Source of the DNA: Lentisphaerota bacterium
GTDB taxonomy: Bacteria > Verrucomicrobiota > Lentisphaeria > Victivallales > Victivallaceae
Assembly (NCBI GenBank): GCA_015061745.1
Contig: SUWB01000027.1
Span: 1-42,868, forward strand
DNA length: 42,868 nt
Direction: 5' to 3'
The notes beneath the pieces are model-generated. The model saw only the letters and a program-made list of their open reading frames with translations. It was not told where the DNA came from and ran no database searches. The position numbers and the translations under genes are program-made. Shown here in pieces: positions 15,878 to 16,840 of the stretch; the first letter of the stretch is position 1, and each line of letters begins with the position of its first letter.

Positions 15878-16840
15878 ATGAAAAAATGTGATCCTGCTTT
15901 CAAAAGTTTTACACTGATCGAACTTCTGGTGATTACTGCACAACACTGCCGTCATTTTTTCAGAGGCTTTATTTGTACGGATCAGTACGGATGTGTACGG
16001 AAACATACGGAGAATGCCGCTCGCAAAAATACGCCGCATCATACTTGCAAAGCAAGTGCTTCATACACTGAAAGTGTGCTTCATATTTGCCGAAGGCAAA
16101 TGCTTCATACGGTGAAACCGTGCTTCACTCAATCAGCGTTCACGCTGATTGAACTATTGGTTGTTATTGCCATTATAGCTATTCTTGCTGCTATGCTTCT
16201 TCCTGCCTTGCAGCAGGCCCGGGAACGGGCACACTCAGCGGCTTGTCTTTCTCACCTGAAAGAGATCGGTTCAGCTCTTTTTAATTACGCAGACGATCAT
16301 TCAGGAATCATCATTCCTGTTGAAAGAGCGACAGTTATCAATGGTTCGACGATGTATTACTGGCAGGAACGTCTTGTCGCGTTGAAATATGTCCCCTACC
16401 CCAAAACAGTCCTCAACGTGGGCGAACCCAAAGGAATCTTGATCTGCCCCAGCGAAAAACGCAATACCATCGGCGACCGTAACGTGTGGAACTCCTGGAA
16501 AGGCACCCATTTCGCAATGAATTATTTTGCTCAGGGGCAACACAATACCTGGAGTTACGGTGTTGCTGCTTCCAAAACACGCCGTCTGTCAGGGATCTAC
16601 CGTCCTTCAAAAGCCTACTATGTGATGGACGGCGGCGTGGGGTTTGACAGCGGAACAGGTTCAGAACGGTTGTCTCTGAGCGGAGTCCGTGCCGGATATT
16701 CCAATATTGCCCGCCGTCATAACGGCAACTTTAATGTGGTACACTTTGACGGTCACGCGGCGTTTTTCCCGGACTATCCTCTGAGAGGAGTCGGCAAGGA
16801 CTGGAAAGATGATGTCTGGGCTCTTGAACCCTGGGAATGA
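15878..16840 (+). CDS. H-X9-DG type pseudopilin with interrupted, duplicated leader
   Basis: 320 residues as read from 15878. Type IV pilin-like leaders occur twice. Copy 1 is FTLIELLVI from Phe11 (Glu15 at mature position 5), which breaks off into polar, Cys/His-rich sequence. Copy 2 is FTLIELLVV from Phe88 (Glu92), followed by a full hydrophobic helix and [11 protein letters not shown]. His281 and Asp291-Gly292 form the H-X9-DG motif common in Lentisphaerota and Planctomycetota pseudopilins. The DNA between the leaders holds tandem repeats and hairpins. An ATG at 16100, in frame, gives a 13-residue leader directly before copy 2 and may be a working start. Such proteins are thought to be processed by prepilin peptidase and to act in type II secretion-like systems. 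It precedes two secreted glycan-active candidates. Confidence 0.8.
15975..16014 (+). repeat. Tandem 10-bp repeat, four copies of TACGGA at exact 10-bp spacing
   Basis: TACGGA begins at 15976, 15986, 15996 and 16006. The first three copies are preceded by G, the last by A, and the remaining bases vary. The array lies inside the pseudopilin frame. A 10-bp period is not a multiple of three, so each copy is read in a different codon phase, which argues against selection on the protein. Confidence 0.85.
16043..16152 (+). repeat. Array of five consecutive hairpins ending in the second pilin leader
   Basis: Four units of 20-24 bp each have inverted arms around an AAA or GAA loop, followed by GCTTCAT (GCTTCAC in the last). 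The arms are ACTTGC/GCAAGT (16043-16057), ACACT/AGTGT (16065-16077), ATTTGCC/GGCAAAT (16085-16101) and ACGGT/ACCGT (16109-16121). Arms differ between units but pair within each, a compensatory pattern. A fifth inverted repeat, TCAATCAGCG (16129-16138) / CGCTGATTGA (16143-16152), has 10-bp arms around TTCA and covers the FTLIE codons of the second leader. Confidence 0.85.

Follow-up and report, generated by a model that had tools for sequence, protein, structure and literature searches.

Probably mobile palindromic leader cassettes that would restore the signal they interrupt in the prepilin leaders of Lentisphaeria

The prepilin leaders of Lentisphaeria very likely harbour small mobile palindromic leader cassettes of 108–279 bp, which would restore the very signal that they interrupt. 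The insertion site, the reading frame, the absence of stops, the ownership of the leaders, the copy number, the mosaic rows, the presence or absence at orthologous loci and the unconstrained peptide were all read from sequence. In the proposed arrangement, a cassette would consist of an open, palindrome-rich body and its own copy of the octapeptide FTLIELLV, and would lie directly behind the FTLIELLV of the host. Translation would then proceed from the host start through the cassette and the cassette leader into the host helix and the pilin body, with the second leader and the host helix together forming a complete class III signal.

The window, that is the whole stretch of 42,868 nucleotides that was analysed, contains a DUF1559-like gene for a type 4 pilin or pseudopilin of 320 amino acids, which reads through such an insert (15878..16840, forward strand, as are all features below). 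The gene was recognised from its open reading frame and from profile matches. PF07963, the N-methylation motif of the class III signal, scored above its cut-off at residues 85–108 (37 bits vs 21.2), the TIGR02532 match was likewise above the cut-off and the PF07596 match was slightly below it. FTLIELLV is encoded twice in one frame within this single open reading frame, at 15908–15931 and 16139–16162, 231 bp apart, and PF07963 matches the second leader only. The sequence and the open reading frame confirm what an earlier note on this DNA had described, namely a doubled leader whose first copy is truncated in its helix (it is followed by a stretch beginning ITAQHC, which is no hydrophobic helix) and whose second copy continues into a complete hydrophobic helix. 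The two copies also differ at most synonymous positions, as that note had observed, six of the eight codons being different.

The gene begins with a host N-terminus of 10 amino acids (15878..15907), visible in the sequence and the open reading frame, followed by the first FTLIELLV, counted as far as the GT in the last Val codon (15908..15930), which has no hydrophobic helix behind it and is probably of host origin, judging from the comparison of family C inserts described below. The inserted unit of 231 bp (15931..16161) is in frame and comprises the body and its own FTLIELLV. Both junctions were placed behind the GT with which the last Val codon begins, as 32 family C inserts and the gap at one orthologous locus suggest. 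The earlier note had marked 15905..16152; the insert stood, and the end was moved, as that span stops at the hairpin and the moving unit is 15931–16161. The complete second leader and its helix, 22 amino acids defined by the open reading frame and the profile matches, occupy 16139..16204 and are followed by the pilin body (16205..16837), whose nearest cassette-free relative is 57% identical.

The structured insert that had been proposed between the two leaders was confirmed. Four TACGGA units with a 10-bp spacing can be read from the sequence at 15976..16011, and a chain of four small hairpins follows at 16043..16121 (16043–16057, 16065–16077, 16085–16101 and 16109–16121), with GCTTCAT between them. 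The terminal hairpin (16129..16152) is a perfect inverted repeat with 11-nt arms (16129–16139 and 16142–16152), and its right, 3' arm forms the beginning of the second leader. In the fetched stretches of the home genome, the same tail was found before a leader 27 times. The predicted RNA fold of 15932–16166 has an energy of -68 kcal/mol (z = -2.55, with three of 200 dinucleotide shuffles as good), which by itself is only moderately unusual; the window insert goes beyond chance because cassettes recur in 61 of 95 pilin genes of the home genome. The 3' half of the insert is 93% identical to a family B cassette on contig C65, and the 5' half (15932..16024) is single in the home genome and common in other species, where similar inserts were found at L129, L133, L234 and L255. 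The window cassette is therefore a mosaic. The earlier view that a cassette had been recombined into the gene stood as far as a mobile leader cassette is concerned, and was refined by this mosaic structure with its singular 5' half.

A BLAST search of the home genome with the segment gave 87 rows, of which three, on contig C37, lay outside pilin genes. About 100 pilin leaders were above the cut-off in a profile search of this genome, and a degenerate pattern located 154 DNA sites encoding FTLIELLV. We read 95 pilin genes from 90 fetched stretches of the home genome and the window; the 61 with cassettes, single or in mixed rows, comprised 50 with an insert between two recognisable leaders and 11 with a cassette otherwise (first leader copy unrecognised or beyond the contig, hence absent from the frame count below), and 34 had none. 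The earlier note had predicted many copies on different pilin bodies and had counted a unique segment as evidence to the contrary; the 87 rows and the 61 genes agree with the prediction, and the segment is not unique. Median leader length was 15.5 amino acids in insert-free genes (n = 32) vs 99 in insert-bearing genes (n = 46), both being upper bounds, since the count starts at the most upstream Met of the open stretch. The inserts were sorted into families A to E, which are found singly or mixed in rows of no more than three cassettes (e.g., A-B-C on contig C15). This is a short repeat in many dispersed copies, with 41 listed for family C in addition to those of A, B, D and E.

The hairpin part of the window insert matched at least 24 of 100 genomes, the home genome included (20 of the same genus, three of other genera of the family and one of another family). 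A scan of genomes with species names returned at least 96 stretches, and the 80 listed ones that were used all came from Lentisphaeria or Lentisphaerae metagenome genomes, mostly titled sheep, roe deer or yak gut. These 80 stretches held 85 hairpin sites, of which 74 ran straight into a pilin helix, two into a slightly different helix, five into another cassette and two into the contig end; the search pattern itself encodes FTLIEL, which fixes the beginning of the frame beforehand but not the sequence downstream. At the remaining two sites (L219 and L247), both near the end of their stretch, FTLIELL meets a stop within a few codons and no helix follows.

The assemblies are fragmented metagenome assemblies in which many contigs break within cassettes, and some of their joins could be wrong. 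It was therefore considered whether the whole pattern is an artefact of misjoined repeats, for which the frequent contig ends inside cassettes and the stops of L219 and L247 near contig ends could be cited. We regard this as extremely improbable, as the pattern recurs across many species in separate assemblies, the junctions are exact and in frame, and the 5' half of the window insert is single in its genome. Contigs that begin or end inside cassettes include L090, L091, L097, L101 and L112, and Lentisphaeria draft genomes are likely broken or misjoined at pilin genes.

For each complete leader, host leader copies were sought upstream in all three frames, and the last insert per gene was counted. 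Its length was a multiple of three, with no stop, in all 111 gene copies, which had 17 different insert lengths between 108 and 279 bp. The set consisted of 50 genes of the home genome, 17 of relatives and 44 from contigs of named species (the last two sets share some genes), with duplicate contexts removed within each set and eight loci that repeat the home genome dropped; 105 distinct bodies remained overall. None of the 105 had a stop in frame, vs 55, 93, 84, 104 and 102 with stops in the other five frames. The 137-bp spacing in the array of contig C19 (39584 to 39721) is not a multiple of three; it holds a run of unread bases and is not a last insert. No larger autonomous cassette was seen with leader copies sought up to 700 nt upstream, the longest last insert being 279 bp.

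Shared descent could inflate such counts, and each change was also counted once. Four same-length families taken together then had 0 new stops vs 8.5 expected; for family C alone the lack of stops was not significant (2.4 expected, P = 0.09). The same-length groups of 192, 168 and 147 bp were excluded from this test, as each mixes unlike families; their single changes would give 4, 2 and 6 "new stops" vs 14.5, 5.5 and 4.5 expected, and the actual sequences have none.

The open frame also bears on the idea that the insert is an intron spliced from the RNA, or that the ribosome skips it; the two leader copies would then serve as splice sites or as the points of take-off and landing. The insert is structured and flanked by leader copies, and family C mostly starts with GTAAGC or GTGAGC if the leader GT is counted, as such a model would have it. 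However, neither splicing nor skipping needs an open frame and a length divisible by three, yet both are found in 111 of 111 copies. The home genome gave no match to the reverse transcriptase profile PF00078 at E 0.001, and Rfam no match at the gathering threshold in four sources (the window, L116, L061 and L032). We consider this explanation very improbable.

The ownership of the two leaders was examined in family C, where the leader copies are 234 bp apart (n = 32). These 32 inserts had 26 distinct first leaders, seven second leaders and 32 helices. The third positions of the first leader were about as varied as in insert-free genes, and the first three third positions of the second leader were invariant. 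From this variation, the first leader and the helix can be assigned to the host, and the body together with the second leader to the cassette. FTLIELLV was intact after the C end in 31 of 31 distinct copies, and the host FTLIELLV before C was intact in 30 and altered in eight of 38 readable cases. The pattern for the C end had 33 distinct matches, 31 of them followed by FTLIELLV; the other two (L037 and L047) were judged by eye to be non-C, an unrelated stretch and the palindrome read backwards. The suggestion that the cassette's leader replaces that of the gene is supported by these counts. The old leader, once severed from its helix, would decay, and the new leader would take over.

In a search with the family C body, all 41 same-sense rows ended one base before the leader and 36 of them started at base 1, the ends having been compared with the leader coordinates by eye; a 42nd row was the palindrome in reverse. 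The search scored 40 of 85 candidates, which leaves room for rare C copies elsewhere than in pilin leaders. A target-site duplication was considered as a source of the two leader copies and was unsupported. The first and second copies were without significant correlation, both in 66 inserts with the hairpin tail (P = 0.07 for all third positions, 0.40 for codons 6–7) and in the 32 C inserts (P = 0.08 and 0.09, respectively), which does not resemble a target-site duplication.

These junctions also bear on a reading without any dedicated mobility, in which homologous recombination or gene conversion among about 100 paralogous pilin leaders spreads the inserts. In its favour, the leaders are conserved and numerous, with their 154 DNA sites, and conservation at third positions of the second leader falls off towards the 3' side. 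On the other hand, all 32 C insertions have a different host helix, and 26 host leaders precede them, up to the same junction, so the flanks were not carried along; the first and second leaders are also not significantly correlated within genes. Plain gene conversion is disfavoured because the junctions are exact and conversion would carry flanks. We hold recombination among paralogues to be a possible but somewhat doubtful account.

Comparison of orthologous loci can reveal whether cassettes are gained, lost or exchanged. For the window gene itself the search gave no orthologue: several relatives have kept the FucU/antiporter block that lies upstream, but the pilin gene was not seen beside it. 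Orthologous pairs of other pilin genes stand in for it. Similar pilin bodies carried different cassettes in pairs with 97% (L146/L248), 95% (L101/L122), 92% (L217/L258), 82% (L117/L213), 80% (L116/L215) and 78% identity (L067/L171). One pair at 99% (L200/L237) had two variants of A, and another at 99% (L153/L154) the same cassette in both. In the pair L217/L258, homology stops at the leader with no upstream match, a break that may reflect rearrangement or misassembly. L263, the same gene as L146, and L248 are 94.9% identical across an alignment of 4,380 columns that starts 376 bp upstream of the last leader and reaches 4.0 kb downstream, but the former has a B cassette and the latter an E cassette.

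An empty site was seen in the pair of L116, in the home genome, and L215. Their flanks are 83.6% and 73% identical and a B cassette is common to both; L116 has a C cassette after B, and L215 is without exactly that stretch and also without the A of the home genome. At the C71 locus, the home genome and genome G012 are 98.4% identical over 684 bp upstream. After a divergent stretch they agree again, at 98.6% in the 72 bp ending at the first leader, and a C cassette common to both is 99.5% identical over 187 bp. The gene on C71 has one extra cassette between the leader and C; the right flank is itself a cassette here, within which the G012 contig ends. The difference between these two arrays could also be explained by recombination between the 23-nt leader repeats, in line with the account that needs no dedicated mobility. 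A long N-terminus shared by orthologues as ordinary coding sequence, which the earlier note had named as the contrary outcome, was not what we found, as related genes and orthologous loci carry other, more, fewer or no cassettes.

To observe what is conserved within a cassette, changes were counted by codon position. Changes in the C bodies fell on codon positions 1, 2 and 3 in the numbers 83, 72 and 72, with 62 synonymous changes vs 64.3 expected and 165 nonsynonymous vs 154.9 expected. The leader and helix behind C in the same genes had 10, 1 and 210 changes, i.e., 210 of 221 at third positions. Counting each change once, which allows for shared descent, gave 51 nonsynonymous changes vs 46.6 and 17 synonymous vs 19.0 in the C bodies. 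The hairpins behaved differently from the peptide. The terminal-hairpin part of C had 35 changes in 90 nt vs 192 in the preceding 120 nt (30 copies), so that, without regard to codon position, the last 90 bases changed at about a quarter of the per-site rate of the first 120; counted once, the values were 17 in 90 vs 51 in 117, under half per site. Small hairpins in A and B were swapped for others of different sequence that were again palindromic. A perfect stem of at least 4 bp was present in 23 of 31 distinct GCTTCAT-bounded spacers, and a perfect stem of 6 or more in 20 of 20 sequences of the family A slot. The codon-position and hairpin counts indicate that the peptide is not kept, and that the frame, the absence of stops and the hairpins are.

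The maintained hairpins could also be taken to mean that the insert serves the host, either as an N-terminal domain with a function or as a regulatory RNA within the coding region. Palindromes that persist through sequence exchange (the 23 of 31 spacers and the 20 of 20 slot sequences), the slower change of the C terminal hairpin (35 in 90 nt vs 192 in 120 nt) and the z of -2.55 for the window fold are in keeping with this. An unconstrained peptide is not, nor are the other cassettes or none at all in related and orthologous genes, the 34 of 95 pilin genes that do without, and the lack of an Rfam match for the inserts in the four sources. This explanation is, therefore, unlikely.

Hairpins were also observed at leaders without an insert. 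In ten of 34 insert-free leaders, the leader start doubles as the 3' arm of a hairpin (0.1 expected with the upstream sequence shuffled), the 5' arm tracking the synonymous variant of the leader (e.g., L033 573, L087 276 and L046 1001). Re-dealing the leaders among the genes still gave 5.7, so much of this is shared sequence; the count omits the tail hairpin of the A and B type, whose loop lies in the leader. In a related genus, L293 (G048 C33) contains a hairpin like the C end (80% over about 80 bp), with no pilin leader in the fetched stretch, and C may have acquired a hairpin that is common outside genes.

A prepilin leader is cytoplasmic, varies in length and is removed by the prepilin peptidase, as set out in the passages on leaders in PMC10191384. 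On the mobile-cassette reading, the cassette peptide would sit in this cytoplasmic leader, and the prepilin peptidase, of which one gene is present in the home genome, should remove it. The amino acids of the cassette would hardly matter because the peptide lies in a leader that the peptidase should remove. The cassette would thus be invisible in the mature pilin and its peptide free to vary; even if it were left uncleaved, the segment would form a cytoplasmic tail. The long leader is presumably cut before the last Phe. Characterised leaders end in Gly or Ala, according to the same passages (PMC10191384). Against such cleavage, the residue before the last Phe was Pro in 42 and Ser in two of the 61 cassette-bearing genes; in the insert-free genes it was Gly in only four of 34 and Ala in none. 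The Gly/Ala rule for the leader end thus seems less strict in the Lentisphaeria lineage, as far as these sequences indicate. Cassettes of families B and C have internal ATG codons close to their 3' end (e.g., 16100–16102 in the window), which could in principle start a leader of ordinary length (13 amino acids in the window).

Cassettes presumably move by precise recombination that uses the terminal hairpin and the leader sequence through some enzyme. Tentatively, a hairpin-recognising recombinase might excise and insert them at the leader GT in an integron-like manner, while the host prepilin peptidase discards the product, making the insertion self-repairing. Such cassettes would survive because the broken sorting signal is regenerated and the peptide is discarded by the prepilin peptidase. 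If true, a host protease would here be removing a mobile element at the level of the protein. The hairpin before a fixed junction, the common end sequence and the lack of a target duplication recall, by analogy, Y1-type single-strand transposition. A Y1 transposase was found in the home genome, which is 91.6% complete and broken at repeats, as two C-terminal fragments with open frames of 63 and 47 amino acids, and no intact copy was found there. The remnants, L288 (C59) and L289 (C62), have similar flanks. The absence of an enzyme is weak evidence in a genome of this completeness and fragmentation.

GCTTCAT hairpin chains, or parts of them, also occurred outside pilin genes and without a leader in five places, i.e., L070 (G000 C37) at 139–918, L312 (C7) at 1286–1940, L311 (C3), L313 (C26) and L314 (C74). 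On C37 and C7, a 23S_rRNA_IVP gene (PF05635) either follows the chain immediately or is fused to it. L311, L313 and L314 have a similar upstream remnant, and no 23S_rRNA_IVP gene was seen there by eye. The arrays of L311 and L314 adjoin genes of repeated SVTKIG...CTSLTSVVIP-like units, which we take to resemble those of leucine-rich-repeat surface proteins. Family B cassettes may derive from this dispersed GCTTCAT element.

Several known systems share features with the cassettes. Integrative elements at tRNA genes or at the 3' ends of conserved genes carry a replacement for the target that they displace. The cassette would likewise restore its target; however, the part restored is a 5' leader, no cassette was seen that is long enough for an enzyme, and the cassette is translated through. 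Integron cassettes form arrays of units that each end in a hairpin-forming site, as is seen here, but the present units are fused in frame and are not separate genes. IS200/IS605 and REP elements, which depend on Y1 transposases, have a hairpin near the right junction and make no target duplication. The cassettes similarly have a hairpin just before the right junction and the same short sequence at the left flank and the right end, but each strings several hairpins together and includes a coding leader.

Palindromic repeats within protein genes appear to be closest. RPE, in the passages that describe them (PMC2229807), are short repeats, palindromic and able to form stem-loops, that are tolerated in frame within protein genes. 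Like RPE and the Wolbachia palindromic repeats, the cassettes are short, dispersed, palindromic, stem-loop forming, in frame and open. RPE sites are described at assorted positions in different genes and also in intergenic regions and RNA genes (PMC2229807; PMC2996958, in the parts concerned), whereas all listed C copies (41 of 41) are at one codon of one gene family. Unlike RPE as presented in those passages, cassettes also carry a replacement of the interrupted signal and stand in arrays. PARCELs are palindromic coding repeats in tandem that are shuffled within genomes, and encode a 25-amino-acid amphipathic repeat that is part of the product, as the relevant section of PMC2996958 puts it. 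The cassettes are palindromic coding repeats in rows as well, but their peptide is unconstrained. From the sequences, the protein-coding palindromic repeats (RPE and PARCELs) seem to be the nearest described kind, and the descriptions given of them set the cassettes apart. Our searches of open-licence papers gave no report of leader-restoring, in-frame pilin cassettes.

The cassettes point to a way in which selfish DNA could live within genes at little harm, by entering a cleaved signal, bringing a new copy of it and staying in frame. With filled and empty sites defined to the nucleotide, the movement of short palindromic coding repeats can be put to the test. A single genome with dozens of insertions offers a natural, replicated test of the length and arbitrariness that a prepilin leader tolerates, and the cassettes may explain the assembly breaks at pilin genes in the Lentisphaeria group. 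In gut Lentisphaeria, such cassettes have very likely spread into the starts of dozens of pilin genes, leaving the pilin proper intact and the frame kept.
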